Part shown: one piece after another, positions 1-21,452 of the stretch
Layout of the letters: every line of letters begins with the position of its first letter
How positions within the stretch are numbered: the first letter of the stretch is position 1
IMG/VR virus record: IMGVR_UViG_3300042472_001110
Location: 1-23,602 of that record
Origin: a virus
Direction: 5' to 3' (one strand)
DNA: 23,602 nt
Notes under the pieces: model-generated
Database searches by the model: none
Told to the model about the DNA's origin: nothing
What the model saw: only the letters and a program-made list of their open reading frames with translations
Program-made: the position numbers and the translations under genes

Positions 1-302
1 GGTGGCTGTACGCCCCCATCGTTAATATTAAACAAAATACCACCATCCATTTTCTTACCATACTGCTCGATAAGTAATTTTTCTTGTTCAAAAGCTTCTG
101 ATTCAAGTAAATTATCATCCATAATAATAACAAAATCCTTACTTTTATAACCTTTATCGCGTATTGTATTGATTTTTATAGTTAGCCATTTATTATGATC
201 GTGACCGGTAAACGCCCAAGCTCTAGAAGCTGTACCTTTACCGATATAAAACGGTTTACGAGTTTCAGGATCAATATACATATAAACATAATACTTATTC
301 AT
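1..302 (-). CDS. GIY-YIG-type endonuclease domain protein, 3' end outside window
   Basis: Reading the minus strand from the ATG at 302 gives an open frame of 100 codons that runs off the left edge. The N-terminus YVYMYIDPETRKPFYIGKG carries the two hallmarks of the GIY-YIG nuclease fold: a YVY strand and an FYIGKG strand. An Arg follows about five residues later, and a Glu-rich helix (about 71-82) could supply the catalytic Glu. The frame ends near an N-x-N-D-G-G element typical of phage members of the family. Such proteins are often free-standing homing endonucleases, but DNA-repair or degradation roles are also known, so the role is unassigned. A TATAAATA box lies 5 nt upstream of the ATG, suggesting late expression. 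Confidence 0.7.
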   Translation of the reverse strand, partial: MNKYYVYMYIDPETRKPFYIGKGTASRAWAFTGHDHNKWLTIKINTIRDKGYKSKDFVIIMDDNLLESEAFEQEKLLIEQYGKKMDGGILFNINDGGVQP

Positions 303-307
303 ACTAG

Positions 308-315
308 TATTTATA
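308..315 (-). promoter_or_regulatory. T4-type late promoter box (TATAAATA)
   Basis: An exact TATAAATA on the minus strand lies 5 nt upstream of the ATG at 302. With T4 geometry (box at -13 to -6), transcription would begin at the A of the ATG, giving a leaderless mRNA. Confidence 0.6.
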
Positions 316-325
316 GTAACCGACT

Positions 326-341
326 TTATTATTAATAATAA
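326..341. repeat. Perfect 16-bp AT-only palindrome in divergent promoter region
   Basis: TTATTATTAATAATAA is an exact inverted repeat of 8+8 nt with no spacer. It lies between the minus-strand GIY-YIG gene and the plus-strand queC-like gene, 17 nt before the queC start. It could be an operator or part of a promoter, but AT-only palindromes arise easily by chance in DNA this AT-rich. Confidence 0.3.
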
Positions 342-358
342 CCAACTTTTAAAAAATC

Positions 359-1108
359 ATGAGTAAAAAATTAGTTTTAGCATTTAGTGGAGGAGCGGAT
401 AGTACAGTATTACTATACATGGCAGCAGCTCAAGGTTATAGTGAAATTCATACAGTAACATTTGATTACGGTCAGAGACATAGTAGGGAATTAGAGTGTA
501 TGGGGGTTCAGTATCAACTTATAAAGGAAAAATATCCTAATATTACTGTCACAAACAAGACATTAGATGTAACATATTTAAAAGATATCTCACCTACCTC
601 ATCTCTTACTAATGAAGGGATTGATAACCCAGATATTAGTAAAATTGCAGGTGATGCGCAACCTGTATCATATGTACCGTTTAGAAATCAGATGTTTGTT
701 ACGATCTGCTGTGCTTATGCAGAGAGTCTAAAAGCAGATGAAGTGTGGTATGGTGCCGCACAAGTTGACTCTCTAGCCGGCTACTGGGACGGAGATTTTT
801 CGTTCGTTGACAAGATGAATGAACTAATATCACTTAACAGACAACATAGAATCCGCGTGGGAGCTCCATTGCTCTCCCTGTCAAAGGCTGATATCGTAAG
901 GCAGGGTGTAGAATTAGGAGTAAACTTCGGAGACACATGGACATGTTATAGTAATAGAGAAGATGGTTTAGCAGATGCTACAACTCCAGCGAGTAGTTTA
1001 AGATTAGCTGGGTTTATTTCAGCAAATTACAGAGATCCCATTAAGTATCTGCAACAGGAAAAGCTTGACGGGATTTACGAAGCCAAAGGATGTAATTACA
1101 TTCCGTAA
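359..1108 (+). CDS. queC: QueC-like 7-deazaguanine PP-loop synthetase, divergent
   Basis: QueC converts 7-carboxy-7-deazaguanine to preQ0 using ATP and ammonia. The 249-aa product is near the normal length. It has the PP-loop SGGADS (10-15), the FDYGQRHSRE motif (35-44) and SYVPFRNQMF (104-113), so the family assignment is firm. Two conserved parts are altered. The usual GYPDCR element reads GYWDGD (141-146). The zinc site keeps only the first Cys (196, in TWTCY): the other three positions, in the usual CxxCxxCxLR, are D206, T209 and S212. There is no frameshift, and the flanking SLRLAGF is intact. The protein may have lost zinc or changed substrate, for example acting as the QueC-like half of a Gat-QueC pair with the amidotransferase at 2574. 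Its 3' end overlaps the convergent gene at 1096-2202 by 13 nt. No Shine-Dalgarno sequence precedes the ATG. Confidence 0.85.
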   Translation: MSKKLVLAFSGGADSTVLLYMAAAQGYSEIHTVTFDYGQRHSRELECMGVQYQLIKEKYPNITVTNKTLDVTYLKDISPTSSLTNEGIDNPDISKIAGDAQPVSYVPFRNQMFVTICCAYAESLKADEVWYGAAQVDSLAGYWDGDFSFVDKMNELISLNRQHRIRVGAPLLSLSKADIVRQGVELGVNFGDTWTCYSNREDGLADATTPASSLRLAGFISANYRDPIKYLQQEKLDGIYEAKGCNYIP

Positions 1109-2202: not shown

Positions 2203-2209
2203 ATATACT

Positions 2210-2217
2210 TATTTATA
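2210..2217 (-). promoter_or_regulatory. T4-type late promoter box (TATAAATA)
   Basis: An exact TATAAATA on the minus strand sits 7 nt upstream of the ATG at 2202. T4 geometry predicts a leader of about 2 nt. The box fills most of the 19-nt gap between the divergent genes at 2202 and 2222. Confidence 0.65.
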
Positions 2218-2221
2218 GAAG

Positions 2222-2539: not shown

Positions 2540-2552
2540 TAAAATATATATG

Positions 2553-2563
2553 AAAGGAGTGAG
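2553..2563 (+). promoter_or_regulatory. Strong Shine-Dalgarno sequence before the amidotransferase
   Basis: AAAGGAGTGAG is one of the few good Shine-Dalgarno matches in the window. GGAG ends at 2559, 14 nt before the proposed ATT start at 2574. It also overlaps a six-codon frame from the ATG at 2550 to the TGA at 2568, which is in phase with the amidotransferase. The spacing is long for direct initiation, so coupling or recoding is possible. Confidence 0.4.
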
Positions 2564-2573
2564 AAGCTGACTT

Positions 2574-3929: not shown

Positions 3930-5252
3930 GTGAGTAACCTTGACCTTGATAATGATTATTTCGAGAAGATACTTTGCTATCGTTCTTTGTGTGACTCTAC
4001 GTATTTAGCTTCTATTGTTGATTACGTTAAGCCTAAGTATTTTAAATCTAAAAATATTGCAAAAATATTTGAGATTATTAACGATTTTTATGCTAAACGT
4101 GAAAAGCTACCAACGCTAACCGAAGTTAAGACGTATCTTACTACAGAAGAGCATAAAGATTCATTTAAACAGCTTGTTGAGTCGTTTAAGGACATTGATA
4201 AGAACATAGATAATAGTGAATTGTATGATAATACAGAGAGATTTATTAAAGAAAAATCTGTATACCATACAATGCTTGAAGTAGCGAGTGATATTGCTAA
4301 AGGTTCAATCGATACTTCAGATATTCTTAATAAATTTGAGACTTCATGTAATATTAACCTTGTAACCGATAGAGGTCTTGATTTGTATCGTGATGTAGAT
4401 ATTATTGTAGAAGATCTAACGAGTATTCAAAAAGCTATTCCTAGTACATGGGAGTGGTTCGATGATGCATTGAATGGCGGGTTTCAAGAGAATGGTCGTG
4501 CACTTTATGTATTTGCCGGTGAGACTAATATCGGTAAATCTATCTTTCTAGGTAATATTGCTACAAATATTGCTAATCAAGGAAAGAATGTACTTCTTAT
4601 TACTTTAGAAATGTCAGAACTACTGTACGCTCGTCGTATTTGTACTAATGTTAGTAAGATTCCACTAAAAGAACTAGCAATTAACTCGCACTCACTACGA
4701 CAAGCACTAAAAGAACAAGAGGATGAAGGTAAAGGCCGTATTTTTATTAAAGAATTTCCCCCTAGTACAGTTACCCCTAATCAGTTAAAGGCATTTATTA
4801 AAAAGATCGTTGATCAAGGTATTAAGATTGATGCTATTGTATTAGATTATCTCAATCTACTACATTCTACTGTAGGTTCTAACTCATACGAACGCATTAA
4901 AAATGTTACTGAGCAAGTTCGTGCTATGACTTATGTGTTTAATTGTCCGATTATATCTGCAACTCAGTTAAATCGATCTGGCTTTAGTTCTGCTAACCCA
5001 GATCTTACTACGATCTCTGAATCTGTTGGTCTAGCAGCTACTGCTGATGTTATTGTATCGATTTATCAGAACGAAGAAGATAGAGAACTAGGTATTATTC
5101 GATTAGGTATGATGAAGAATAGGTATGGACCAAGAGGTCATACTCAAGCTATGAGAATCGATTATACTACACTTACTATTACGCAAGCAGAAGATAGTAT
5201 TAGTTCTACAGAAGACAGCTCGTATAATATGCTACAATCCTTTGGAAGTTGA
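3930..5252 (+). CDS. 41: Replicative DNA helicase, DnaB/T4 gp41 family
   Basis: A 440-aa hexameric 5'-3' helicase that unwinds DNA ahead of the replisome. The N-terminal part (1-150) is the DnaB-like helical domain. The RecA-like motor has Walker A GETNIGKS (197-204), a catalytic-Glu segment LITLEMSE (223-230), Walker B IDAIVLDYLNLL (300-311), the H4/sensor Gln in SATQLNRS (343-350), and the arginine-finger region MMKNRYGPRG (394-403). The start is GTG at 3930, giving MSNLDLD. Its size is close to T4 gp41 (475 aa), and the next genes are other replication proteins. The C-terminus is a Ser-rich tail. The symbol is by analogy with T4. Confidence 0.93.
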   Translation: MSNLDLDNDYFEKILCYRSLCDSTYLASIVDYVKPKYFKSKNIAKIFEIINDFYAKREKLPTLTEVKTYLTTEEHKDSFKQLVESFKDIDKNIDNSELYDNTERFIKEKSVYHTMLEVASDIAKGSIDTSDILNKFETSCNINLVTDRGLDLYRDVDIIVEDLTSIQKAIPSTWEWFDDALNGGFQENGRALYVFAGETNIGKSIFLGNIATNIANQGKNVLLITLEMSELLYARRICTNVSKIPLKELAINSHSLRQALKEQEDEGKGRIFIKEFPPSTVTPNQLKAFIKKIVDQGIKIDAIVLDYLNLLHSTVGSNSYERIKNVTEQVRAMTYVFNCPIISATQLNRSGFSSANPDLTTISESVGLAATADVIVSIYQNEEDRELGIIRLGMMKNRYGPRGHTQAMRIDYTTLTITQAEDSISSTEDSSYNMLQSFGS

Positions 5253-5268: not shown

Positions 5269-5276
5269 TGTAAATA
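5269..5276 (+). promoter_or_regulatory. Possible variant late promoter box (TGTAAATA)
   Basis: TGTAAATA differs from TATAAATA at one base. It lies 6 nt before the GTG at 5283, the same spacing as the exact boxes elsewhere in the window, in the 30-nt gap after the helicase gene. Confidence 0.35.
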
Positions 5277-5282: not shown

Positions 5283-5720
5283 GTGAAACCAGCTACTTGT
5301 AACGACAACCTTAAGGCTAGTATTAGTGCCTTTCGTGATGGTAAAAGAGATTTTGATGTTCAAGAACTTAACGATATTAAATTATATTTTTTAAAATATA
5401 AAGATCAGCTAAATACTACACAATTCTTTAAAGGTGAATTGCAAGAATATCTTGTAATTAGCTGTTTTGCAGATGAGTTTCAAGAAGAGTTGCTTAATCA
5501 CATGATTAAAAAGTTATGTGCAGCTATTGCTATTGTTGTATCAGTTAAAGATAAAGAAGTATTAATTAAAACAAATAAAACAGTTTGTAATGTTAATTTG
5601 TGTAAATTATCTCAACTATTATGTGATGGTAATTGTATCGACGAAAGCAAAGAAATTGCTCAAGGTAAACTTACAGAAAAGTTTCTTAAATTTACAACTA
5701 AATTAACACCATGCATTTAA
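5283..5720 (+). CDS. Hypothetical protein
   Basis: A 145-aa protein, not recognised. The start is GTG at 5283, supported by the box at 5269-5276, since no ATG precedes it in frame. The sequence is mainly helical in character with eight Cys scattered through it, several in the C-terminal half (TVCNVNLCKLSQLLCDGNC), but no clean CxxC pairs that would define a zinc finger. No membrane segment or signal peptide is seen. It overlaps the next gene by 10 nt. Its position between helicase and gp32 genes suggests a replication or transcription accessory role, but the sequence does not show one. Confidence 0.7.
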   Translation: MKPATCNDNLKASISAFRDGKRDFDVQELNDIKLYFLKYKDQLNTTQFFKGELQEYLVISCFADEFQEELLNHMIKKLCAAIAIVVSVKDKEVLIKTNKTVCNVNLCKLSQLLCDGNCIDESKEIAQGKLTEKFLKFTTKLTPCI

Positions 5721-6004
5721 CACCTGTTGTAAATCCTTCACAGAGTATTATAGATAGAGAAAGTGAACATATATTACTCTCTTTTTGTTCGTTTTGTACA
5801 CTCTTGAAAGGTAAAAAATTATCTTTTCAAAATGTGTTTATACTCGCTTTACAGGATGAAAAATTGAGAAGTATATTAAAAGACCTTTTAGGAGTTGATT
5901 CTAACTACGAAATCGTTAAACTATTTTTAGAATATGATCCTACGATCACTAAAAGTAAGTATATAACGAAATGGCTTAATTCTAACCAGAAGATAGATTT
6001 ATAA
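5711..6004 (+). CDS. Hypothetical protein; positional candidate for gp33-type late co-activator
   Basis: A 97-aa protein, not recognised from sequence. It overlaps the preceding gene by 10 nt and is followed 12 nt later by a 220-aa gene and then gp32. T4 has the order 33-59-32 with proteins of 112, 217 and 301 aa, so position and size fit gp33, which links RNA polymerase to the sliding clamp at late promoters. The C-terminus (NSNQKIDL) shows no convincing clamp-binding motif, so the idea rests on gene order and on the late promoters in this window. Confidence 0.65.
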   Translation: MHLTPVVNPSQSIIDRESEHILLSFCSFCTLLKGKKLSFQNVFILALQDEKLRSILKDLLGVDSNYEIVKLFLEYDPTITKSKYITKWLNSNQKIDL

Positions 6005-6721: not shown

Positions 6722-7591
6722 ATGAGTTCATTCAATACATCAATGTTTCAATCCATCAAGGATGCACTAGTCAAAAATGAAGGTGAAGGTAGTAATGCTA
6801 CCTACAACGAAATCATGAAGACTACACCAGGCAATACCTATACTATTAGATTGTTGCCCTTCGCTAAGGATCCAAAAAATACGTTCTTCCATTATTACAA
6901 TCATGGATGGCCGTCATTTGCAACAGGTCAATACGTACAAACTCTATCGCCGATGACCTTCGGTGAACGTGATCCGATCGCTGAAGAACGCTTCAAGATT
7001 CTACGTGCAGGGTCAGAAGACGATAAAGAAAAAGTCAAAGCAATTAAACGTATTGAGAAGTATCTTGTTAACGTTTATGTTGTTGATGATTCACAGAATC
7101 CTGATAACAACGGCAAAGTTAAGATTCTTCGCTACGGTAAGCAACTTCATAAAATTATTATGGAGGCTATTGAGGGTGAGGATGCAGAAGAGTTCGGTCC
7201 ACGAATTTTCGATCTTGGATCTACCGGTGTTAACTTTAAAGTTAAGTGTGAAAATCAAGGAGAGTTTCCTACCTATGTATCATCTCGATTTACTTCAGCA
7301 GGTAAACTTGCTCTTACAGAAGATGAGCAAAAGAAGATCTACGATAGCACTTTTGATCTTACAAAAGTCTTTAGTCTTAAGTCATATGATGAACTTAAAG
7401 CTATGCTTAATGAACATTACTACTGTAAGACGGAAGCCTCTGAACCCGAAGTAAATACTCAGCAAGCTAGAATTTCAACACCATCAACTCAAGAAGAAAA
7501 AAATGCAGATAATTCACCATTTAAGGCATCATCTCAATTTAATGATACTTCTATTGATGATGAAATCGACGAGCTTCTCAAGGACCTGTAA
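6722..7591 (+). CDS. 32: Single-stranded DNA-binding protein, T4 gp32 family
   Basis: A 289-aa protein that coats single-stranded DNA in replication, recombination and repair. The basic N-terminal segment is followed by an OB-fold core with the conserved YLVNVYVVDDSQNPDNNGKV (114-133), ILRYGKQLHKII (135-146) and GVNFKVKCENQGEFPTY (169-185). It ends in an acidic tail (SIDDEIDELLKDL), the part that recruits partners such as the loader and polymerase in T4. T4 gp32 holds zinc with a His and three Cys in this core. Here the matching stretch YVQTLSPMTFGERDPIAEERF (71-91) has no Cys, so the zinc site is absent. It has its own promoter at 6653-6680. Confidence 0.93.
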   Translation: MSSFNTSMFQSIKDALVKNEGEGSNATYNEIMKTTPGNTYTIRLLPFAKDPKNTFFHYYNHGWPSFATGQYVQTLSPMTFGERDPIAEERFKILRAGSEDDKEKVKAIKRIEKYLVNVYVVDDSQNPDNNGKVKILRYGKQLHKIIMEAIEGEDAEEFGPRIFDLGSTGVNFKVKCENQGEFPTYVSSRFTSAGKLALTEDEQKKIYDSTFDLTKVFSLKSYDELKAMLNEHYYCKTEASEPEVNTQQARISTPSTQEEKNADNSPFKASSQFNDTSIDDEIDELLKDL

Positions 7592-7592: not shown

Positions 7593-8048
7593 ATGACTGA
7601 CGAAGAAAAACAAGCATTCTTAATGTTTGCGGGGACTATGCATGGCATTGCAAAGCAAACTGATCAGATGATTATGGGTCAGTCGGTTAACCTAAGACCT
7701 ATTAGTACAGACATTCAAAATACGTTTGCGCAAGTGTTACAAGCACCTACACAGCGTGCAGAGATGCATCACCAAGCTCCGATAGAACAACCAATTGAGC
7801 AACCATTGGTATACGAACAACCTATAATCCCACCACAATCCTTACCGATCAGTGAACCAATTGTTGGTGTTGAGCAGGCTGTTAAAGAGTTAAAACATAT
7901 TCAGCAAGCTATTAGACCTACAGAAGTAACAAATAATGTAGACATTATTGATGTTCTTAAGGAAATTAGCTTGAACTTAGCTAGAATCGCGACTACACTT
8001 GAAAGCCATGGCGGACAAAAGAGAACTAAGAGTACTAAAGCAGCCTGA
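7593..8048 (+). CDS. Hypothetical Pro/Gln-rich protein between gp32 and clamp
   Basis: A 151-aa protein starting at the ATG one base after the gp32 stop codon; an AAGGA about 8 nt upstream serves as ribosome site. Residues 1-45 and about 90-140 look helical. Between them is a disordered linker rich in Gln, Pro, Ile and Glu (for example APIEQPIEQPLVYEQP). The C-terminus is basic (GGQKRTKSTKAA). It overlaps the clamp gene by 41 nt in another frame. Not recognised; it may be a replisome or recombination adaptor, by position only. Confidence 0.75.
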   Translation: MTDEEKQAFLMFAGTMHGIAKQTDQMIMGQSVNLRPISTDIQNTFAQVLQAPTQRAEMHHQAPIEQPIEQPLVYEQPIIPPQSLPISEPIVGVEQAVKELKHIQQAIRPTEVTNNVDIIDVLKEISLNLARIATTLESHGGQKRTKSTKAA

Positions 8049-8745
8049 ATTTGTAAAGTTTCTAGATGCGATATCGAAAATCAACGAGTCAGCGATAGTA
8101 AATGTACAGGCTGGAGAGCCTGGTCAACTATCCTGTCTCGTCTCTTCCGCAGACAATACACTAATATTGTCTGCGGAATTAAATTCGGTAGAAGCTAATT
8201 TTAACGGTACAAATAATATACCTGACATTAAGAAACTTATTCGCGTTATAGATAGCATTTCTGTAAAGGAAATGATATTGAATGTTAATTCAAATAACTA
8301 TGAATATAAAGATAACCGTGTTAAGTTTAAGTATCATTTGTACGAAGACGGGTTGCTTGCAAAGCCTACTATTAATATTGAAAAAGTTAATAGTTTTAAA
8401 TATGATATTAGTTTTCAGTTAACAAAAGATATCCTACAATCAATTATTAAAGGTAGTACATTTGCAACTGAGACTAATAAAGTATATCTTTTTACAGAAG
8501 ATGGCTGCTTAAAAGCGGAGTTAACTGATAGAGCTCGACATAATACTGATGCATTATGTTTGGATCTAGGTGAAGTTAATTTTGTACTTAATCCCTTACC
8601 CCTTAATTTGGATAATATTAAACTTTTATCTACTATTGGAAATATTATAGATGTAGGAGTAAATACACAGTATGGTGTTTGCGTGTTTGATATGCAAGCA
8701 AATGACATTAAATTAAAATATATTGTAACCTCACTAACACAATGA
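8008..8745 (+). CDS. 45: DNA polymerase sliding clamp, T4 gp45 family
   Basis: A 245-aa protein that forms the ring tethering the polymerase and, in T4, activates late transcription. Features matching gp45-type clamps are an N-terminal helix (EFVKFLDAISKINESAIV), alternating strands such as DNTLILSAEL and DNRVKFKYHLYEDGLL, and a second domain from about 125 onwards (DISFQLTKDILQSIIKGSTF). The length is near T4 gp45 (228 aa). The ATG at 8008 is preferred to the TTG three codons upstream, because the resulting N-terminus MADKRELRVLK is typical and the TTG has no ribosome site. The stop overlaps the next start (ATGA). Confidence 0.85.
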   Translation: MADKRELRVLKQPEFVKFLDAISKINESAIVNVQAGEPGQLSCLVSSADNTLILSAELNSVEANFNGTNNIPDIKKLIRVIDSISVKEMILNVNSNNYEYKDNRVKFKYHLYEDGLLAKPTINIEKVNSFKYDISFQLTKDILQSIIKGSTFATETNKVYLFTEDGCLKAELTDRARHNTDALCLDLGEVNFVLNPLPLNLDNIKLLSTIGNIIDVGVNTQYGVCVFDMQANDIKLKYIVTSLTQ

Positions 8746-11652: not shown

Positions 11653-11660
11653 TATTTATA
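11653..11660 (-). promoter_or_regulatory. T4-type late promoter box (TATAAATA)
   Basis: An exact TATAAATA lies 5 nt upstream of the ATG at 11647. T4 geometry places the transcription start on the A of the ATG. It is paired back-to-back with the variant box at 11667-11674. Confidence 0.65.
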
Positions 11661-11666: not shown

Positions 11667-11674
11667 CATAAATA
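11667..11674 (+). promoter_or_regulatory. Variant late promoter box (CATAAATA), divergent
   Basis: CATAAATA, one base from consensus, lies 6 nt before the ATG at 11681. With the box at 11653-11660 it forms a divergent late promoter in only 33 nt of intergenic DNA. Confidence 0.45.
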
Positions 11675-11680: not shown

Positions 11681-12007
11681 ATGCCAGTTGCAACAAATCC
11701 ATACAATATAGGAGTCGCATCAAAGCCTATAGCAGACTTTGATGTATCTGCTCAGATTAAAAAATATGAAGATGAAGCTGCAACACATGAAGCTCCACAA
11801 GTTCTTCCGTTTAATTTTAATTCAGCAAACGAGTTAATTAGTAAACTATATCTTGATCTTCTTGAACTGAGAGCAATGTTTATTACTGCAGAAAGCAACT
11901 CACAAGTGAAGGCTAAAAATCTAGAACCTATATATAAGGTTATTGACAATATAGGTACAGAAATCACACAAAATATTCCTGAATTGCTTGATAAGTTAGC
12001 ATTATAA
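11681..12007 (+). CDS. Hypothetical protein, probable late gene
   Basis: A 108-aa protein, not recognised. The first 45 residues are low in structure (PVATNPYNIGVASKPIADFD), and the remainder is helical (SANELISKLYLDLLELRAMF; LEPIYKVIDNIGTEI). There is no signal peptide or membrane segment. A variant late box is at the leaderless spacing and no Shine-Dalgarno sequence is present. A structural or assembly role is possible because of the promoter, but this is inference. Confidence 0.7.
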   Translation: MPVATNPYNIGVASKPIADFDVSAQIKKYEDEAATHEAPQVLPFNFNSANELISKLYLDLLELRAMFITAESNSQVKAKNLEPIYKVIDNIGTEITQNIPELLDKLAL

Positions 12008-12020
12008 GTTATAATTACTT

Positions 12021-12440
12021 ATGATTAAAAAAATCGGAATATCACTCATACTTACTAGTTTAATAAGTCTTGGTATTGGGTTTATACTGCAAAGTTTTAT
12101 AGGGTTTTGGCAAGGTGTTACAGCAGCCTTTATTATTCATTTTTTAATTTTTTATCTTTTTAACCCTAATAAAAAGAGTCAAATCTTTTTAGAAAGTGAA
12201 CAGTCTGCATTCAACCACCTTCTTCAGACACAAACAGTAGAGATAAACTGCCCTTGTGGGCAAAATCCAACCAAAGCACCTATACTACTTAACGAAGATA
12301 ATATTTTTATCTGCGAAAAATGCGCAAGTAAGTATCGAGTTAATGCCACTTTTGAATCTGTTTTATTAACTGAACCACTTAACATTGAGAATGCATTTAA
12401 TGCTTTAAAGAAAAGGGAACTTCCTTATACTAGTGTATAA
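12021..12440 (+). CDS. Membrane protein with C-terminal zinc-ribbon-like domain
   Basis: A 139-aa protein. Two hydrophobic segments (about 5-25 and 28-47) form a short membrane hairpin after a Lys-rich N-terminus. The soluble part has C77-P-C79 and C98-E-K-C101, a likely four-Cys metal site in a small ribbon. Family unknown. It is preceded by TATAAT at 12010-12015, which is very near the ATG. It ends overlapping the next start by one base (TAATG). It could act at the host inner membrane, but no partner is evident. Confidence 0.7.
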   Translation: MIKKIGISLILTSLISLGIGFILQSFIGFWQGVTAAFIIHFLIFYLFNPNKKSQIFLESEQSAFNHLLQTQTVEINCPCGQNPTKAPILLNEDNIFICEKCASKYRVNATFESVLLTEPLNIENAFNALKKRELPYTSV

Positions 12441-12819: not shown

Positions 12820-15800
12820 TTAAGGAAACGGAGTGAGGGAGACGATCATACGATAATTCTGCTGATATACATCATCATACGTTCCAGCTGGGTTTGTTGC
12901 ATCTTCACTACCTACACCCGGACCGTAGTAGAAAAGCCATCCGGGTGTATAGACATGCACATATTCCCCTAATTCTTCATCATAATATGTTTCCACGTAG
13001 GTCGCGTTAAGATACCATGCCAGCCAGAATGTCTCGTCGTAAGTGCCGTTGAAGAAGCTACCTTCGTAATAATCGTTCGTAGCTGCGCCAATCATCCCAC
13101 CAAACGGGCCGTTGACGACCCACGTCATCGTAAAGTCTGTCTCCGGACCATCAGGATATTGATAGTGTCTGACATAGATTGTTTCAGGGAGACTGCCAAC
13201 TGTTGGTGTTGGTGTAGGAGTTACTGATGTTGGTGTTGGTGTAGGAGTTACCGGTGTAGGAGTTACTGTTGGTGTAGGTGTTGGTGTTGGGCATGCGCCG
13301 CTGGTGACAGTGGCGTAGTAAGGCGGAAACGCGCCAGGAATATAATAACCATCAGGTGAAGAGCCGTCGTTGTAGTAATAGCTGGATACATAATTAGGAT
13401 CGTCCAGCTCCCAATATGATGTATAGATGTTATAGTCGAGTGTGAACGTGCCTCCAGGACCTGTGCCGGTGTATCCGATGACAACATTCCCAGACATGTT
13501 GAATTGCGTCTCCGTGGTAACATATGGGTCATACGTTGCCTGAGTGTACTCGACGCAGATGGTTTCGATACCTAATCCAGTAGGTGTTACTGTTGGTGTT
13601 ACAGTAGGTGTTACTGTAGGTGTAGGAGTATTAGTAGGAGTTATTGTTGGTGTTATTGTTGGTGTAGGTGTATTAGTAGGAGTATTAGTAGGAGTATTAG
13701 TAGGAGTTATTGTTGGTGTTATTGTTGGTGTAGGTGTATTAGTAGGAGTATTAGTAGGAGTATTAGTAGGAGTATTAGTAGGAGTTATTGTTGGTGTTAT
13801 TGTTGGTGTAGGAGTATTAGTAGGAGTATTAGTAGGAGTTATTGTTGGTGTTATTGTTGGTGTTATTGTTGGTGTAGGAGTATTAGTAGGAGTTATTGTT
13901 GGTGTTATTGTTGGTGTAGGAGTATTAGTAGGAGTATTAGTAGGAGTTATTGTTGGTGTTATTGTTGGTGTTACTGTAGGTGTAGGAGTATTAGTAGGTG
14001 TATTAGTAGGAGTTATTGTTGGTGTTACAGTAGGTGTTACTGTAGGTGTTACTGTATTAGTAGGAGTATTAGTAGGAGTCACTGTAGGCGTTACTGTAGG
14101 CGTTACTGTAGGTGTATTAGTAGGTGTTACTGTTGGTGTAAGTGTAATAGTAGGTGTTATTGTTGGGGTAGGTGTCGGTGATAGGAAGAGGGTAGGCGTT
14201 ACTGTTGGTGTAAGTGTAATAGTAGGTGTTACTGTAGGTGTAGGAGTATTAGTAGGGGTTACTGTAGGCGTTACTGTAGGGGTTACTGTAGGGGTTACTG
14301 TTGGTGTTACTGTATTAGTAGGAGTATTAGTAGGAGTTACTGTAGGCGTTACTGTAGGGGTTACTGTTGGTGTAGGTGTATTAGTAGGTGTATTAGTAGG
14401 AGTTATTGTTGGTGTTACTGTAGGTGTTACTGTAGGTGTTACTGTAGGTGTTACTGTATTAGTAGGAGTATTAGTAGGAGTATTAGTAGGAGTATTAGTA
14501 GGAGTTATTGTTGGTGTTACTGTATTAGTAGGTGTATTAGTCGGAGTTATTGTTGGTGTTATTGTTGGTGTTATTGTTGGTGTAGGTGTATTAGTAGGAG
14601 TTATTGTTGGTGTTATAGTAGGCGTTACTGTAGGTGTTACTGTAGGTGTTACTGTTGGTGTAGGTGTATTAGTAGGTGTATTAGTAGGAGTTACTGTAGG
14701 CGTTACTGTTGGTGTAGGTGTATTAGTAGGTGTATTAGTAGGAGTTACTGTAGGCGTTACTGTTGGTGTAGGTGTATTAGTAGGCGTTACTGTTGGTGTA
14801 GGTGTATTAGTAGGCGTTACAGTTGGTGTAGTTGTATTAGTAGGAGTTATTGTTGGTGTTACTGTATTAGTAGGAGTTACTGTTGGTGTTACTGTTGGAG
14901 TAGGGGTATTAGTAGGAGTTACTGTTGGTGTAGGAGTTATTGTTGGTGTAGGTGTGGGTGTAGGAGTACACAGGTTAAGTGCGTAAGCTGTTTCGATAGC
15001 AATATTAGTTACCTTACTAGAAGTTATTTTGTGTGTAGCTTGAGCTTGAATAGTGATTACCTCATTAGGTATACAATTTACATACAATGTAAAGTCTTTA
15101 GTTTCGCCAGGCTGTATTACAGTTGTTCCTTCAGAATTAGAAGAATTACTCATTACACTAACAACTAAATCATATTCTCCAGGGTAACCTATTTCTGACA
15201 TTGTTACACTGAACATAACTCTTGTATCATACGGTTCACCTGTTGCAGGATCATAACAATCTTCAGATGGGTAACCGTCAGTATTGCTTATATCTACGCT
15301 ACTAATAGTGAGAGTAGGCGGTGGCTCCGACGATGTTGTATCACACTCTCCCCATGTATAGCTATAGCCGAGTGTTATATTATTAAGAGAAGTGTTGCTA
15401 GGTAACGTGGAGGGACACACAACTATACTATTATATACAGTAAGTGGAAAGACAAACCGTGTAGCGTTAAACTTATTGGTTCGTTGTGTTATATCTCCAT
15501 CTTTTACAATTAAGGCTGTTTTTATATTACTATGAACTTCACTATTAGGTTCGCAAGCTATCCCACTATAGCAAGTATTCACTGTATATCTGCGTAATAT
15601 ATTATCTATAGAACTACTTACTTCATTTGGTGTATATGTAGAAAATGTTGATGTATCAATACCCCAATCAAAAAACACAGGATAGTCATCACCCATATTA
15701 GGTAGACGATTAAGAAAACTTCCGTCAGAATTATATATATTGCCTAGTAAAAAAAGCATATTATTATTATAATATAAACTATCGTAGGGTATATTATATG

Positions 15801-16350
15801 TTGTAGATATAATAGGTATTGTATATATATAACCTAAACTATTACCTGTTACAGGTAAATTACCTGTAAAATAAGATGACCAGTTAACTGTCAGTTTATA
15901 TTCAAAGTTAATTATTTGACCTGCGCATAAGCTATATGTTGAAGTGAGAGTATTTCGAGCAAAACTATTAATTTCAGTCCGCTTAATAGCGAATTCATTT
16001 ATCGTAATATTATCTAGAGCTTTACCAGAAGAAAAAGATGCAATATAGACTTTACTTGAAATCGTATCTTGATACGATTCGACAATATCTCTATATATGT
16101 TTTTAAATTCCGTTTCAGCTATTACACCTGAAAGTCCGTAGCCTGATACACCGGGCAGACTACTACTCGACCCTATATCTAAATAACTAATAATGTTAGG
16201 TATGTCGTAATAGTGAAGATCTACTAAACCACACGATAAAATAGTATTATTACACCAAGGTGACGTATATACAATAGTATCATTATCCTTTACGGAGAAT
16301 CTATATTGACCCTTAAGTTTAATATCAACATTTATATTATCATGTATCAT
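12820..16350 (-). CDS. Giant tail adhesin with Thr-Pro repeat stalk and duplicated C-terminal head domain
   Basis: A 1176-aa protein. Residues 1-345 are Ser/Thr/Asn/Tyr-rich beta-type sequence with no family recognised. About 347-455 looks like an Ig/CARDB-type beta-sandwich ([10 protein letters not shown], then [15 protein letters not shown]). About 462-925 is an almost unbroken Thr-Pro stalk of [12 protein letters not shown] and TPTP units. A domain of about 90 residues starting ETICVEYTQ (about 932-1019), a second shorter Thr-Pro linker (about 1020-1055), and a related domain starting ETIYVRHYQ (about 1059-1176) complete it. The two heads share the ETIxV start and a T-x-F-x-M strand. This fits a receptor-binding or surface-adhering fibre. 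Its ATG overlaps the upstream lectin-like gene by 4 nt. The head-coding DNA looks richer in G+C than its neighbours. Confidence 0.8.
13575..14966. repeat. 1.4-kb degenerate minisatellite encoding the Thr-Pro stalk
   Basis: About 1.39 kb is made of 6- and 12-nt units, on the plus strand GTAGGA/GTAGGT joined to GTTACT, GTTATT or GTATTA, in shuffled higher-order blocks. Translated on the minus strand it gives T-P-T-x with x = V, I, N or P. One irregular island (about 14160-14200) encodes LFLSP. A second short tract with the same coding sense lies at about 13199-13292. Repeats of this kind change length easily by slippage or unequal recombination. Confidence 0.9.
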
Positions 16351-17519
16351 ATATATTTTGCAGAAATGGTTGTACTATATGCACCAATCGGTACAAAGCT
16401 AGTATTATTTAAAAATAATGATGTTGCAGATGATAATTTCCAGTACTCACAAAACATATCTTTATATATTCTATACTTACTGTCAGAAGATACATAATTA
16501 AATATATCCTTACGAGTTAAATTCACATTTATTGCACTAGTACCATCAAATACGCTCAATCTATATCCAAAGTTGTATCTATCTTCTGTAATACCTGTAA
16601 GACTATCAACCGAAGTTATTCTTGCATAAGTTATTGTGTGTGTGGGGCATATACTGTATACAGCATTATTATCTACAATAGGTATTACAAATTCCTCCAA
16701 TGGAGGTATAGGTGGTCGCGAAGGAGGAATTGTTGGAATTATAGGTCTGACAGGTAAGATTTTTACCCCACTCAAAGTAGTATTTACTATTGTTGTTACC
16801 TCACCAGATAAAAAATTACCCTCTGTATGGAAATTTCTAAAATATATAGTACCTATTTTATTAGGATCGTTACTACTTATAGGTGTCGCAAAAGATGCTC
16901 CAACTTTATACATAGTATTACTTGTAATATCTAAATTTACATCTTTTACTAGTAGGGATTTAAAATCATCGTCAGGAGTACTCCTATAATCAACATACAA
17001 TGTTCTACCAACATTACCTAGTCTTGCACGAATCGTTTTATAATTTAGCTCACCATCAACAATCTTAAAAGAACTATCTAAGCTTGAAAGAGCAACATTG
17101 TAATTATTTGTATTATAACTATAAGCTGGCCACTTATCACGAATACTAACACTATTAAGAATTCTAGCTGACTCATCAATACCATCGCGGATTACTCTTG
17201 TTCCAGAAAGCGCTGATACAGCAAATAATCCCGTGGTATCAAATCCTACAGCAATTATACCTCCACTTACCCCTGGGGTTAAAGAGCTTGATTGATCACT
17301 ATTAGAAGAAAGTCCTGAATAACCGAGATCAATATTAAAATTACCACCCGATAATATATAATTATTATCCATTATAAATACGGTAAACCCAGCTTCAGTA
17401 TTATTGTTACCGCTTATAGCATAATCAAAAGACCATACAATATCATAATAGGGGGAATACCCGTAGTTAGATGCTATATTGAATGCTTTTGTATTAACCG
17501 TAAACGTAGGGTATACCAT
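16347..17519 (-). CDS. L-type-lectin-like tail adhesin
   Basis: A 390-aa protein. The N-terminal about 235 residues resemble a concanavalin/L-type lectin fold: [20 protein letters not shown], a GYSGL turn, [11 protein letters not shown], then SVSIRDK and a late strand [18 protein letters not shown] Pro-rich hinge ([18 protein letters not shown]) leads to a C-terminal domain of about 100 residues of unknown fold. This layout suits a carbohydrate-binding virion protein. It has an exact late promoter box 6 nt upstream and is coupled by 4 nt to the giant adhesin, so the two may form one fibre. The lectin call is from sequence pattern only. Confidence 0.6.
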
Positions 17520-17525
17520 ATAGTT

Positions 17526-17533
17526 TATTTATA
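17526..17533 (-). promoter_or_regulatory. T4-type late promoter box (TATAAATA)
   Basis: An exact TATAAATA lies 6 nt upstream of the ATG at 17519. It lies immediately after the stop of the 70-aa gene. Predicted leader is about 1 nt. Confidence 0.65.
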
Positions 17534-17746
17534 TCAAGAGTCCTTGGTAAAGACACAAGTCATAGAATCTTTAGATTTAAATCGCGTGACATGCTTTACA
17601 GAATAACCTAACCGCTTATATTCACGATATAATATATCAAAATATTCCATTTCAAAATTAATAATTACACTATTACGCGAATCATCGATTAGTATATAGT
17701 CTGAAAATTCTTCCCCAAGCGCTAATACTCTGTCTGGAATAGCCAC
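17534..17746 (-). CDS. Small hypothetical protein
   Basis: A 70-aa protein, not recognised. The start is GTG at 17746. The ATG two bases earlier is out of frame. It has alternating strands and helices (DYILIDDSRNSVIINFEMEY; SVKHVTRFK), like a small alpha/beta fold. A degenerate late box (ATTAAATA) is at the leaderless distance. It sits among tail genes and could be a chaperone or regulator, but nothing in the sequence shows this. Confidence 0.6.
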   Translation of the reverse strand: MAIPDRVLALGEEFSDYILIDDSRNSVIINFEMEYFDILYREYKRLGYSVKHVTRFKSKDSMTCVFTKDS

Positions 17747-17751
17747 ATAAC

Positions 17752-17759
17752 TATTTAAT
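17752..17759 (-). promoter_or_regulatory. Degenerate late promoter box (ATTAAATA)
   Basis: ATTAAATA keeps the last six bases of the consensus and is 5 nt from the GTG at 17746. It overlaps the stop codon of the 53-aa gene upstream. Confidence 0.3.
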
Positions 17760-17916: not shown

Positions 17917-17919
17917 AAA

Positions 17920-19608
17920 TTATATAGTATAACCAACAATTCTTATTGTAATGGCATCATATTTAGAAGGTGATATTCTAAAAGCGCATGTTAAATTACC
18001 GTTGGCCGCAGCAGATAGTGGTATAAACACTTGACTACCACTACGTATACTATCACCACTACCAGATGCACGGCTTGATCCTACTAGATATTCATATGTA
18101 TCTGGTGAAGTTGGACCAGTAAGAAGACTTTCATTAGGAGCAGATACAACAAATCTATCCATATTACCACCATCAGGGCCAGATTTTTTAATTTCACAAT
18201 CAACAATTAAATTCTTTGCAGCTGGTGATACATTATATAGTGTCTGAGTTCGAGCGCCGGCGGCAGTAAAAGAGGTTATCTTGGGGTATGCAGAAATTGT
18301 TGTAGTAACTGATGTAGTACTAGAAGACTGCGGTTCAGAATATATTGTTACAGGTCGTTTTAAGAACGCAATAGGTGAATTTTCGTTGTAAATATCTGTA
18401 CCCGTTACTTGTGTAATAGTACCAGCTGGGTATGCTATACTAGATGTACTCGCTACCGTGGTTACACGTCCGTATGTATCTACAGTAAACGAACTACCAC
18501 CAACTATAGTTTGACCTGTAATTATCGCTGGTAAACCTACCTTAATATTACCAGATAAAGTACCTATAGCACTACCTGTAACATCGACACCATTAACTGT
18601 ACCTGTTAACCCATTATTAATAGTAAACGTGGAAGATACAACATAATCAGGTTTAGCTTTTATTATATAAAGCATACCTGTTGCACTCAAGGTTGAATTA
18701 GTACCTGATGAAACACTAACTAATGTAGATGAAGAAGGCGAATTACTAACACCGTAAATTGTTTTGTTAATTAAATTAGGTACATTAAAGTTAGCACCAC
18801 TACCCCCAAAGGAGTAACCAACTACGGCAGATAGTTCAGGGTAACTAGCACCTACAACAGATTGACCGTTACACAGTAACCAACCTGCAGGTGCATTAGC
18901 TGAAGAAACGTAAGGCATAATAGAACCTACAGCAATTTGACCGGCTGTACCTGCTACAAACACAGTCGTAGGAGTAGCAGCATTGCTCCACGATAAGTTA
19001 CCAGATATGTCAGAAGTAAGATAAAGATCTGAACCAACGCCGCCTGTTGGCCAGCTATAATTAACAGAATTAATAGATAAGTTCTGCGGTAAACTCAAAT
19101 AAGTACTATTTAGAGGTGTAATGCGATCTGTCTTAATACTGCTGCTGAGTGATATTTTATTTGTACCATCTAGGGATATTGAGTTACCTAGTAAATTTGA
19201 AGATATATTACCAGCAGATAAAGTACCTACTCTTATACCGTTAGTATTACTTACAACAACCGTACTATCCGCTGCAGTATACACACCTCCCACCTCGACC
19301 CAGTTATTAATATTGCTAGCTGAGCCTGATAAATGGTGGACATATAACTTATTATTATCTGTATCAAAAGCATAATCACCTACAACAGCTCCAACAAAAT
19401 CAGTTACAGCAGTTGAGCTACCTGCATAGGTACTACCAATAGAGATACCACCCTGTGTTTGACCATCACCCACAAATAAGCGTTTTGTATCTATTGTGTA
19501 ACCTAGTTCACCTTCCGTTAATATTACATTCTGTCTGTCAACATTAGTACCGCGTCTAATTAGAAGTTTAAGTAGTGTATTTTTATTAATTTCAATTTTA
19601 GCTGACAT
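17920..19608 (-). CDS. Tail fibre protein with N-terminal Mtd-like and tail-collar domains
   Basis: A 562-aa protein. Residues about 10-50 contain LLIRRGTNVDRQ, ELGYTIDTKRLFVGDG, a motif found at the N-terminus of many phage fibre and major tropism determinant-like proteins. About 225-285 is a phage tail-collar domain: VGSIMPYVSSANAPAGWLLC, then YPELSAVVGYSFGG and FNVPNLINKTIYG. The rest is Ser/Thr/Gly-rich beta repeat with a C-terminal beta domain of about 130 residues (ITSFTAAGARTQTLYNVSP to the end). It acts in host binding on the virion. The N-terminus is paralogous to the 19622-20722 product. A late box lies 14 nt upstream, within the end of that gene. Confidence 0.8.
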   Translation of the reverse strand: MSAKIEINKNTLLKLLIRRGTNVDRQNVILTEGELGYTIDTKRLFVGDGQTQGGISIGSTYAGSSTAVTDFVGAVVGDYAFDTDNNKLYVHHLSGSASNINNWVEVGGVYTAADSTVVVSNTNGIRVGTLSAGNISSNLLGNSISLDGTNKISLSSSIKTDRITPLNSTYLSLPQNLSINSVNYSWPTGGVGSDLYLTSDISGNLSWSNAATPTTVFVAGTAGQIAVGSIMPYVSSANAPAGWLLCNGQSVVGASYPELSAVVGYSFGGSGANFNVPNLINKTIYGVSNSPSSSTLVSVSSGTNSTLSATGMLYIIKAKPDYVVSSTFTINNGLTGTVNGVDVTGSAIGTLSGNIKVGLPAIITGQTIVGGSSFTVDTYGRVTTVASTSSIAYPAGTITQVTGTDIYNENSPIAFLKRPVTIYSEPQSSSTTSVTTTISAYPKITSFTAAGARTQTLYNVSPAAKNLIVDCEIKKSGPDGGNMDRFVVSAPNESLLTGPTSPDTYEYLVGSSRASGSGDSIRSGSQVFIPLSAAANGNLTCAFRISPSKYDAITIRIVGYTI

Positions 19609-19621
19609 TGATTAAGGGGAG

Positions 19622-20722
19622 TTATTTATAAGAAAAGATTGGTATTGCGAATCTATCCACCGATGTACCGTTTTGTGAGTTAACAGATTCAAAAGTAATA
19701 AATCCTGCAGAAGATAGTTGCTTTGTTACTGACGCTGTAAAGTTAGAATTCCAAGATAGTGTATTTACTAATGTATTACCACGATAGCCAGATAGTGCAG
19801 ATATTCCTGCACCTGTTGTCTGTAGAGGAAACCCTGCATAACTACCATTACCGGCAGATAAAGTATCTATTATAGAATTATAAGAAGATAATGCTCTACC
19901 TTTCGAATCGAATACTATATTTCTAAATATATTACCGGAATCACCAGCACCCCCAAAATTTGCCAGTTTTATTTGACCGCCAACATTTTGAATATCTGTA
20001 GTAAGCGTATCGTTAATTGTTGCTTGTAATTTATCACCTACAATATCTAAACCAGCTCCGAAAGAATCAGCACTAAGCGAATAAGCTGTTACTGTACCTA
20101 CTGGTAACGCCGTAAGTGTTAGTGTTGTACTATTGTATCCGAAATACGCTGTATCTGCGTTAACACCTATTATAGTACCACTACCACCCTGTAATCCGTT
20201 ACCGAGTGCAGAAGAAGCGATATGCTTTTGATCAATTACACCTACCGATAGTACATTTGTTGATGTTACTTTTAGAGTAATATTATCTACATTAGCTGAT
20301 ATACCATTATTTACAGTAGCAACCAACCCGCCTGATGCAGCAGACGATAAGAATTTAGTACCTGTTATACCGTTATCTTTTATAATAAGTTGATTGCTAG
20401 AATACGTTAAAGTGCTATTATCTGTTTTTGAACCTATAAAAGCCCAACTATCAGGTAAGCTATAATTTACACCAGTTAATTGGTATAGTAGACTATTATC
20501 ATACACGATATCGCCTATTTGTGCGTTAGTAATATTAGTCCGAGTCTGAGGAGACCATGTAACATTACCAACAATGTTACCACCTGGTAAAACACCATCA
20601 CCAACAAATACACGCTTTGTATCAGTTGTATATCCCAATTCACTCTGCTCGAGAATGACAGATTTTCGTTGTGCGTCTGTACCTCTTCTAATCTTAAGTT
20701 TTATAATTGTAATATCAGGCAT
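19622..20722 (-). CDS. Tail fibre protein, N-terminal paralogue of 562-aa fibre
   Basis: A 366-aa protein. The N-terminus IIKLKIRRGTDAQRKSVIL, SELGYTTDTKRVFVGDG is clearly homologous to that of the 562-aa protein, as is the following SW-AFIG strand region. The middle is Ser/Thr/Gly/Asn-rich beta sequence (SAASGGLVATVNNGISANVD), typical of a trimeric fibre shaft. The C-terminal part (SWNSNFTASVTKQLSSAGF and onwards) differs from the paralogue and lacks the collar domain. It follows the collar protein gene by 22 nt and has no exact late box, so it is probably transcribed with that gene. Confidence 0.8.
   Translation of the reverse strand: MPDITIIKLKIRRGTDAQRKSVILEQSELGYTTDTKRVFVGDGVLPGGNIVGNVTWSPQTRTNITNAQIGDIVYDNSLLYQLTGVNYSLPDSWAFIGSKTDNSTLTYSSNQLIIKDNGITGTKFLSSAASGGLVATVNNGISANVDNITLKVTSTNVLSVGVIDQKHIASSALGNGLQGGSGTIIGVNADTAYFGYNSTTLTLTALPVGTVTAYSLSADSFGAGLDIVGDKLQATINDTLTTDIQNVGGQIKLANFGGAGDSGNIFRNIVFDSKGRALSSYNSIIDTLSAGNGSYAGFPLQTTGAGISALSGYRGNTLVNTLSWNSNFTASVTKQLSSAGFITFESVNSQNGTSVDRFAIPIFSYK
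19623..19630 (-). promoter_or_regulatory. T4-type late promoter box (TATAAATA)
   Basis: An exact TATAAATA is built into the last codons of the 366-aa fibre gene (TAT AAA TAA). It is 14 nt from the ATG at 19608, the longest spacing seen. The predicted leader is about 8-9 nt and lacks a Shine-Dalgarno sequence. Confidence 0.6.
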
Positions 20723-20744
20723 AAAGTTAAAAATATCTAGTTAA

Positions 20745-21437
20745 TTAAGCCGTTCTTTGCCATACATACAAGCCAAACCCAGGAGGTGTATTGTTATGAG
20801 GTTGATTACTACCTATGTAAGAAGTAAATCCTTGTACTCTTGTTCCTCCAGCAGAAGTTTCCTGTCTACCTTCTGCAAGACCGGGCATATCTATAAAAGT
20901 TTCACCATATACGAAAGATGAATTTCCCGCTGCACGTGTGTCATCTGCAGTACCATTAAGATGTCTATGATTTGGCATTTCAGGGATGGTTAATAGATGT
21001 TGATATTCACCGCCTGTATTATTTCCAGCTGTAAAGGTTTTAAATACTCCGTCAACAGTATCACTACCGACACCTACTAAAAATCTCCCTTGACTTACCT
21101 GCGACCAGGTTGTACCAGTCCAGCCAGTTCTTGTACCAGGGTTACTATCATTAAAGGTAACAATTATAGAGCTTACAGGGTGTAATACATTTAATAAATT
21201 TAATATATCAAATTGTGTTGAAGCAGAAAGCTTCGATGTTGTGGTCAATGTATCACATGTAAATGGACCACAAACAGTTGCACCATTACACGCTCTACCT
21301 AATTTAAGCGACGACTTGTTACCCAGTCCATCGTAGATATCTATAAGTGTTGATACAGGTAAAGCTTCGCCGTTAGAATGTAACACACCACCGTAGGTAT
21401 CACTAATTTTTGTCTGTGTAAGCTTAGTACTAGCCAT
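20745..21437 (-). CDS. Tail-collar / short tail fibre-like protein
   Basis: A 230-aa protein. The C-terminal half has the pattern of phage tail-collar and gp12-like receptor-binding domains: QGRFLVGVGS, GNNTGGEYQHLLTIPEMPNHRH, and the end SNQPHNNTPPGFGLYVWQRTA. The His residues in EYQH, HRH and QPHN resemble metal-binding His of short tail fibres. A Cys-containing segment (ACNGATVCGPFTC) is at about 48-60. It probably binds a host receptor or caps the baseplate. It has an exact late box 7 nt upstream. Confidence 0.8.
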   Translation of the reverse strand: MASTKLTQTKISDTYGGVLHSNGEALPVSTLIDIYDGLGNKSSLKLGRACNGATVCGPFTCDTLTTTSKLSASTQFDILNLLNVLHPVSSIIVTFNDSNPGTRTGWTGTTWSQVSQGRFLVGVGSDTVDGVFKTFTAGNNTGGEYQHLLTIPEMPNHRHLNGTADDTRAAGNSSFVYGETFIDMPGLAEGRQETSAGGTRVQGFTSYIGSNQPHNNTPPGFGLYVWQRTA

Positions 21438-21444
21438 TTTATTA

Positions 21445-21452
21445 TATTTATA
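21445..21452 (-). promoter_or_regulatory. T4-type late promoter box (TATAAATA)
   Basis: An exact TATAAATA lies 7 nt upstream of the ATG at 21437, in the 19-nt gap after the 680-aa gene. Predicted leader is about 2 nt. Confidence 0.65.

Follow-up and report, generated by a model that had tools for sequence, protein, structure and literature searches.

Transcription of the late genes of bacteriophage T4 is a textbook system, in which a leader bearing a Shine-Dalgarno (SD) sequence usually separates the late promoter box from the start codon. According to PMC2988020, the box lies approximately one helical turn upstream of the transcription start (+1), with its first two positions at -13/-12. Here we describe the placement of such boxes, with the sequence TATAAATA and the core TAAATA, in the IMG/VR virus record IMGVR_UViG_3300042472_001110 (positions 1 to 23,602; hereafter the window, meaning the whole 23,602-base stretch) and in its relatives. 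The gene content of the window is T4-like, with genes for a gp41-like helicase, a gp32-like single-strand DNA-binding protein, an exonuclease/RNase H, a primase, queC and tail or fibre proteins.

Several described systems lie close to this arrangement. Late promoters of the form NATAAATA are given for cyanophages (PMC2984593), 15 late promoters are counted in the OM43 phage Melnitz (PMC9004378), and late-promoter prediction in pelagimyophages is described as unsuccessful (PMC7029224). Most middle and late transcripts of the Thermus phage phiYS40 are leaderless (PMC3594737); in Deinococcus-Thermus a -10 motif a few base pairs from the open reading frame (ORF) drives leaderless mRNA, with a spacing requirement established by experiment (PMC12340547); and phage transcripts in general are called often leaderless, yet those of AR9 have leaders of 26-491 nt (PMC5312081). 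The word 'leaderless' occurs in the accessible text of PMC9004378, and likewise of PMC7892664, only within a reference title, and no report of leaderless T4-type late genes was found in the open-licence literature, which omits most subscription papers.

We read the boxes as late promoters of the gp55/sliding-clamp type, belonging to a clade of the T4 superfamily and fused to start codons in a way that would yield leaderless mRNAs, and we assign this reading a probability of about 85%. The box, its spacing, its late specificity and conservation, a pyrimidine before and a purine at the predicted start, SD sequences near background, and gp55 and clamp genes in the clade are all features of the sequences themselves; the mechanism built upon them is conditional. 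Where the gap (the number of nucleotides between box end and start codon) is 5, RNA polymerase would start at the first base of that codon, A or G, and at gaps of 6-7 +1 would fall 1-2 nt before it. The boxes would be read by gp55, RNA 5' ends would lie at start codons, and ribosomes would have to find a start codon at the very 5' end with no SD helix to help, presumably by initiation of the 70S (leaderless) type. Late genes internal to operons and lacking a box would be read by coupling or reinitiation, and the same start-fused design would extend to the TATAAT-type promoters of many replication genes.

Boxes and start codons in the window

An earlier note on this DNA, made from its letters alone, had listed six exact TATAAATA boxes and three near matches, and placed all but the one at 19623 at 5-7 nt from a start codon. 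All nine are present, the exact ones all on the minus strand:

308-315, minus strand: TATAAATA, gap 5 to the ATG at 302 of a GIY-YIG/homing-endonuclease-like ORF running off the window end; a single distinct upstream compared
2210-2217, minus strand: TATAAATA, gap 7 to the ATG at 2202 of a 368-aa ORF with no PHROG match; TAAATA at gap 6-7 in 8/8 distinct orthologue upstreams
5269-5276, plus strand: TGTAAATA, gap 6 to the GTG at 5283; TAAATA at gap 6-7 in 11/13 distinct orthologue upstreams
11653-11660, minus strand: TATAAATA, gap 5 to the ATG at 11647 of a 144-aa ORF; gap exactly 5 in 18/18 distinct orthologue upstreams
11667-11674, plus strand: CATAAATA, gap 6 to the ATG at 11681; gap 5-6 in 15/15 distinct orthologue upstreams
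17526-17533, minus strand: TATAAATA, gap 6 to the ATG at 17519; TAAATA in 2/5 distinct orthologue upstreams
17752-17759, minus strand: ATTAAATA, two mismatches to TATAAATA, gap 5 to the GTG at 17746; gap 5-6 in 4/5 distinct orthologue upstreams
19623-19630, minus strand: TATAAATA, the outlier, gap 14 to the ATG at 19608 of a tail collar/fibre protein (PHROGs); TAAATA at 5-8 nt in 1/2 distinct orthologue upstreams
21445-21452, minus strand: TATAAATA, gap 7 to the ATG at 21437 of a tail protein (PHROGs); a single distinct upstream compared

The list of exact boxes was incomplete: the window holds ten, the other four, at 2531 (minus), 6415 (plus), 17373 (plus) and 22281 (plus), all lying inside ORFs. 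The spacing statement thus stands for the five listed exact boxes it covered, and overall for 5/10. The promoters at 11653 and 11667 are divergent and back to back, with 33 nt between the start codons at 11647 and 11681; an inverted-repeat arrangement like TATTTATGC...GCATAAATA at this place recurs in many distant relatives.

Spacing against chance

The window holds no more exact boxes than chance would supply (10 observed, 7.56 expected, and 10 reached in 26 of 100 shuffles), and box count was rejected as evidence on that ground. Spacing behaves otherwise. With an ORF caller blind to the open-ended gene at 302, 4/10 exact boxes lie at 5-7 nt from a start, whereas 500 circular shifts average 0.03 such boxes and never exceed 1, and TATAAATA-N4-10-ATG finds five matches where the pattern read backwards finds none; the non-random feature is therefore the spacing, not the number. 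Among 27 starts, TAAATA stands at 5-7 nt before 6/11 minus-strand and 2/16 plus-strand genes.

The earlier note expected the same spacing elsewhere in the genome; the window being a 23.6-kb fragment, the pattern was sought in relatives, which were found with gp41 and a late protein. All 14 records carry TATAAATA-N3-12-ATG, with 111 matches against 36 for the pattern read backwards, although four to five of them share the window's own boxes. Six IMG/VR contigs were fully read: G001 (170,908 bases), G002 (105,316), G003 (121,925), G004 (82,117), G005 (154,604) and G007 (41,405). Exact boxes lie at 5-7 nt in 5/28 cases in G001, 10/34 in G002, 5/36 in G003, 9/27 in G004 and 7/27 in G005, far above circular-shift means of 0.05-0.16, and G007 also exceeds its shifts. 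Across the six contigs, G007 included, 40/167 exact boxes are so placed, against a mean of 2.5% for 55 other orderings of the same letters. Two permuted words are also high: ATAAATAT, at 39/169, overlaps the box with an offset of one, and ATTAAATA, at 32/148, has TAAATA in common with it. As ATTAAATA behaves like TATAAATA, a view confined to the exact octamer was discarded as too narrow and TAAATA was used in the later counts. Its occurrences at gaps 5/6/7 to a candidate start number 41/17/3 in G001, 17/10/4 in G002, 17/18/5 in G003, 13/6/4 in G004 and 29/13/1 in G005, where circular shifts give means of 0.6-1.1 for the sum; the peak is at 5-6 in all five, with no case at gap 4 in any. A motif-free scan of the five long contigs ranks TAAATA, at gap 5 or 6, first among positional hexamers; in G007 it appears at gap 7 (4 cases), and in the window no positional hexamer reaches 4.

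Such a pattern could be an artefact if the TAA of TAAATA were merely the stop codon of the gene upstream, or if starts were mis-called and the true start lay downstream behind a leader. Box TAA and called upstream stop do coincide in some short-gap cases (G001 10/64, G002 6/37, G003 8/43, G004 4/28, G005 7/48, G007 1/11), but most boxes overlap no called stop, most permuted words behave otherwise, and gp18 N-termini are alike from the box-proximal codon onward. We give this explanation almost no weight.

Late genes and replication genes

If the boxes are late promoters, they should be partitioned by gene class. To this end 99 families (present in at least three contigs) received labels from profile or sequence matches with genes of T4, HTVC008M, Mosig, Syn9 and phiM12, and 13 late and 15 replication families were counted, some on weak matches (gp45, gp62 and gp14, with E of about 1e-5 to 7e-5). 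Late membership was judged by gene identity, with timing deduced from it. TAAATA, scored at gap 5-8 before a start within the first 30 codons, marks 28/46 labelled late genes against 0/70 replication genes (Fisher 4.7e-15), the count leaving out phoH (4 genes), a 97-aa protein that matched gp46 and two proteins with weak matches to gp26. By family the contrast is 10/13 late against 0/15 replication (p 2.2e-5), and the boxed late families include gp13, gp15, gp17, gp18, gp19, gp20, gp21 and gp25. The four phoH genes have TAAATA at gaps 7-9. The 18 unboxed late genes divide as follows: 10 begin -11 to +2 nt from the end of the upstream gene, 4 are the capsid gene, 2 (gp15) have TAAATA at gap 11, and gp4 of G002 and gp17 of G004 fit no category. 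A part of the replication genes carries TATAAT instead (16/70 against 0/46 late genes; p 1.8e-4). Two replication genes of the window served as controls without a late box:

3930-5252, plus strand: gp41-like replicative helicase; TAAATA at 5-8 nt in 0/43 distinct orthologue upstreams
6722-7591, plus strand: gp32-like single-strand DNA-binding protein; 0/42 distinct orthologue upstreams

These figures bear directly on the possibility that TAAATA is a translation element, either AT-rich or Kozak-like and serving SD-less initiation, with transcripts that begin further upstream. A clade with little or no SD enrichment would be expected to use some other initiation signal, and the box-to-start distance is fixed, as such a signal might require. 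Replication genes, however, need translation equally, and have TATAAT or no such element in place of TAAATA. Together with the further observations given below, this leaves the translation-element explanation improbable in our judgement.

Predicted transcription start sites

With the T4 distance from box to +1, a gap of 5 makes the leading base of the start codon the predicted +1. Bacterial polymerase favours a pyrimidine before a purine at +1. In the clade, the -1 base is a pyrimidine in 112/117 gap-5 genes (T 80%, C 15%, A 4%, G 0%) against 265/459 ATG genes without a box (p 1.3e-17). Among the 70 cases at gap 6, 68% have a purine there instead, which ties the preference to the box and not to the codon. 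Start codons at gap 5 are also restricted, with 97 ATG, 20 GTG and 0/117 TTG, where TTG makes up 239/1440 candidate starts (Fisher 3.7e-10). A translation signal would not readily give a -1 pyrimidine that tracks box position, nor the hard lower edge at gap 5.

Conservation of box and gap

Orthologous genes mostly keep both box and gap. The 62 orthologue pairs compared, which are not independent, were chosen for one member having a box at gap 5 or 6; the partner is boxed at gap 5-8 in 55 of them and at the same gap in 45. Across the 42 gap-5 pairs, agreement is 88-95% in the six columns of the box, 33-74% in the 29 columns upstream and 74% in the -1 column; the contrast is weaker in the 20 gap-6 pairs (box columns 50-95%). 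The orthologue counts listed for individual window genes come from a search in which a boxed start was sought within 45 nt of the expected start, in tests and controls alike, and a third control, the gene at 12021, has TAAATA at 5-8 nt in 0/21 distinct upstreams.

One might also suppose that the boxes are real late promoters of minor importance, with working mRNAs coming mostly from promoters further upstream and leaders being the usual state. Read-through is indeed possible at several boxed late genes that follow a same-strand neighbour by 9-32 nt (gp18-gp21 in most contigs). Against this, the divergent pair at 11647/11681 is conserved (18/18 and 15/15) and has no same-strand gene directly upstream, and read-through mRNAs would still be without SD sequences. 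We consider a mainly upstream origin of the mRNAs unlikely, and to about the same degree as the translation element.

Shine-Dalgarno sequences and the capsid gene

The earlier note saw no ribosome site at the boxed genes, and the window bears this out: GGAG, GAGG or AGGA occurs at -18..-4 in 0/26 called genes against 1/26 in a control stretch. With SD-like defined as GGAG, GAGG, AGGA or AAGG at -17..-4, and again compared with a control stretch, SD in the clade is near background: 17/188 against 15 in G001, 21/165 against 18 in G002, 11/175 against 19 in G003, 3/95 against 7 in G004, 13/157 against 10 in G005 and 1/40 against 3 in G007. Among boxed late genes 2/28 have an SD-like sequence. Elsewhere SD use is strong, in HTVC008M (97/184 against 23), T4 (152/254 against 23) and the stretches of KVP40 (27/44 against 4) and Mosig (35/55 against 1), and weak to moderate in the cyanophage-like stretches of Syn9 (16/61 against 7), P-SSM2 (9/38 against 5), AG-345-F15 (7/47 against 6), AG-345-P14 (23/91 against 17) and AG-345-L05 (18/60 against 8). 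Because cyanophage stretches whose boxes are distant are weak in SD too, lack of SD alone is no proof of leaderless mRNA, and its use as sole proof was dropped.

The major capsid gene, gp23, is a leadered exception as judged from its upstream region, with an SD-like leader: AAAGGAA lies 14-18 nt before the ATG, counted from its first base, in 4/4 contigs (G001, G002, G003 and G005), and in 2/4 a TAAATA starts 70-84 nt upstream. A structured leader was considered and rejected, three gp23 leaders folding no better than shuffles (z 0.02, 0.48 and -1.13). By eye, a short GAGGU...ACCU stem recurs upstream of gp23 with changed inner pairs.

Comparison with other phages

The clade shares with T4 the late box, the lack of a clear -35 element, AT-rich sequence downstream, association with late genes, and a gp55 homologue and sliding clamp. 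It differs in that its box is fused to the start: in T4, 0/32 TATAAATA lie within 12 nt of a start, and those near a start are 13-34 nt away. Ahead of TAAATA the consensus of the clade tends towards G-A-A, which also sets it apart from T4. In the other comparison phages, represented by 40-50-kb stretches, exact boxes at 5-7 nt number 0/6 in KVP40, 0/8 in Mosig, 0/2 in Syn9, 0/3 in P-SSM2, 0/7 in AG-345-P14, 0/5 in AG-345-F15 and 0/5 in AG-345-L05 (one at gap 8), while the 50-kb stretches of RM378 (0/6), Cr30 (0/1) and phiM12 (0/1) hold too few boxes (6, 1 and 1) to inform. For TAAATA alone, single cases at gap 5 to 6 occur in Mosig (1/76), AG-345-P14 (1/56) and RM378 (1/47).

The T4-like marine Pelagibacter phage HTVC008M (147,284 bases) is mixed. 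There, 5/21 TATAAATA are at gap 5 and 11 TAAATA at exactly gap 5, with a -1 pyrimidine in 10/11 of these genes. Other late genes are boxed 18-36 nt upstream, often with an SD sequence between (for the portal gene, a box 30 nt upstream plus SD), and SD-like sequences accompany 2/14 cases at gap 5-8 against 10/15 at gap 14-44. A box found both fused to starts and well upstream of them is a further point against its being a translation element. HTVC008M differs from the clade in its genome-wide SD use and in that TATAAT at 5-7 nt is not enriched. Mosig shares the host strain of HTVC008M (Candidatus Pelagibacter ubique HTCC1062), yet its TATAAATA near starts lie at 20, 22 and 32 nt (first 50 kb), so the host alone does not set the mode.

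As a positive control, phiYS40 (first 50 kb) shows TANNNT peaking at gap 6, in 9/59 annotated genes, with 0-4 at other gaps. It resembles the clade in this spacing and, on our reading, in being leaderless; the element tested there is -10-like and not TATAAATA, and membership of the T4 superfamily was not established here. The leaderless genes of Deinococcus-Thermus differ in being cellular and using a cellular sigma factor, where the clade would have one class on a phage late promoter.

Late specificity, the -1 pyrimidine, start codons that are never TTG at gap 5, and the different box placement in T4, KVP40, Mosig, Syn9 and P-SSM2 together argue that transcripts probably start at the start codon itself or 1-2 nt upstream of it, with +1 placed 0-2 nt from it, as the earlier note proposed when it called the late mRNAs leaderless. 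That note reads the sequence correctly, and its interpretation is very probably correct as well. It missed the alike-spaced TATAAT promoters of many replication genes, the SD-like leader of the capsid gene and the mixed modes of HTVC008M.

Late-transcription machinery and host

Homologues of gp55, matched with HTVC008M gp55, are encoded in G001 (81775-82212, E 1.7e-19) and G005 (75954-76394, E 2.1e-19). Both are shorter than that of T4 and end soon after the conserved core, with tails ENSFED and ENLFEDQ where T4 has LDFLYEAND, which we take to be its clamp-binding tail. A T4 gp55 match in G007 (E 5.7e-4) was not counted, the protein being large (about 1000 aa). Two further candidates lie in the window:

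8008-8745, plus strand: gp45-like sliding clamp, the counterpart of the T4 late-transcription activator; family profile to Mosig gp45 E 6.8e-5, AlphaFold2 pLDDT 86.9, best match among PCNA clamps of the PDB E 7e-12
5711-6004, plus strand: gp33 candidate, a 97-aa all-helical protein, placed by gene order only

The protein of 8008-8745 is, by its modelled fold, a sliding clamp. No strong column appears upstream of the late box at the -35 position, TTGA at a 16-18 spacer preceding 8/187 late promoters against 31/76 TATAAT promoters, and the stretch after the box is AT-rich. In short, several defining features of the T4 late type are present: a TATAAATA-like box, no conserved -35, late-gene bias, and gp55 and gp45 encoded in the clade. 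What they lack is T4's SD-bearing leader between box and start, which is a usual trait and not part of the promoter definition.

The Pelagibacter phages HTVC008M (91228-91431; L138 41228-41431) and Mosig (L140 9932-10141) carry the ribosomal protein bS21. A phage bS21 as helper was sought among clade ORFs of at least 60 aa and none was detected (best E 0.065). A Bacteroidota host, as an explanation of SD loss, was set aside as the TTGA/TATAAT promoters speak against it, assuming the usual promoter consensus of that group.

TATAAT promoters

The start-fused design is not confined to the late box. TATAAT lies at 5-7 nt in 19 cases in G001, 21 in G002, 12 in G003, 8 in G004 and 16 in G005, against shift means of 0.9-1.4; the figures are 2 against 0.29 in G007, 1 against 0.19 in the window, 3 against 0.91 in HTVC008M and 1 against 1.65 in T4. 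The window case is:

12010-12015, plus strand: TATAAT, gap 5 to the ATG at 12021; candidate TATAAT-type promoter of a leaderless mRNA

Of the 76 TATAAT promoters, TTGA occurs at a 16-18 spacer in 31 and GGAAC close by in 27; a single promoter carries both elements and 19 carry neither. GGAAC was found 29 times within 25 nt upstream of TATAAT, and in 24 it ends exactly 5 nt before it. The two types are candidate early and middle promoters respectively. GGAAC is a candidate middle-promoter element that may replace the -35, nearer to the -10 than the MotA box of T4 as we take that box to be placed. Upstream of the helicase gene at 3930, the window has a GGAAC/TATAAT-like sequence, GGGAACTATATTAGTATTAT.

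Across G001-G005 a late-type box stands at 5-8 nt in 220/782 called genes, and TATAAT at 5-7 nt in 74 more. On balance we lean slightly towards a wider proposal, in which all promoter classes would be fused to starts: 1) a host sigma70 type (TTGA-17-TATAAT); 2) a new middle type (GGAAC-5-TATAAT); and 3) the gp55 late type. Leaderless mRNA would then be the phage-wide default, with an SD leader kept for the major capsid gene.

Other features of the window

Elsewhere in the window, positions 12820-16350 (minus strand) hold an ORF of 1176 aa in which PTxTPT-like units form a long repeat stretch rich in Thr and Pro, and 359-1108 (plus strand) is a QueC-like gene. Phage QueC-like genes can serve DNA modification.

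Evidence that weighs against leaderless late promoters

Several observations count against our interpretation of the boxes as start-fused leaderless late promoters. Firstly, the box is neither exclusive nor universal: in the window, 4/10 exact TATAAATA are intragenic and one more is at gap 14; no box precedes 18/46 labelled late genes, among them every gp4 (4 genes), gp6 (3) and gp23 (4); and a wider scan (first 40 codons, gaps 3-12) finds TAAATA at one gp62 (G002, gap 5) and one gp44 (G001, gap 3). Secondly, SD evidence is not clear-cut. A narrower three-tetramer test gives 16 against 6 of 184 genes in G001, where some SD use is possible; SD is also weak in cyanophages whose boxes are mostly 20-29 nt away; and leaderless phiYS40 has SD-like sequences in 24/59 genes against 11 in the control stretch. 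Thirdly, machinery and host are only partly traced: no gp55 was detected in the fragmentary window or in the incomplete contigs G002-G004; a PDB fold search with the gp33 candidate, placed by gene order, gave no significant match (best E 3.0); and a contig scan identified no host, its single 25%-identity match lying in a Spirochaetales metagenome-assembled genome that is not of this clade. Finally, the ORF caller was simple and the counts are not fully independent, G007 being approximately the window itself (470/472 sampled 50-mers) and G001 and G005 close relatives.

Implications

Start-fused late promoters look like a widespread habit in this uncultured group of T4 relatives, and leaderless by design may be the best name for the clade's late mode. 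Leaderless phage programmes are already known from phiYS40; within the T4 superfamily, start-fused leaderless late transcription looks like a new variant. Leaderless initiation is a minor route in Escherichia coli. If our reading is true, an environmental type of T4-like phage starts much of its protein synthesis by that route. HTVC008M, which by sequence would use both modes and has a cultured host, may allow leaderless and SD-led translation to be compared within one cell and for one type of promoter.

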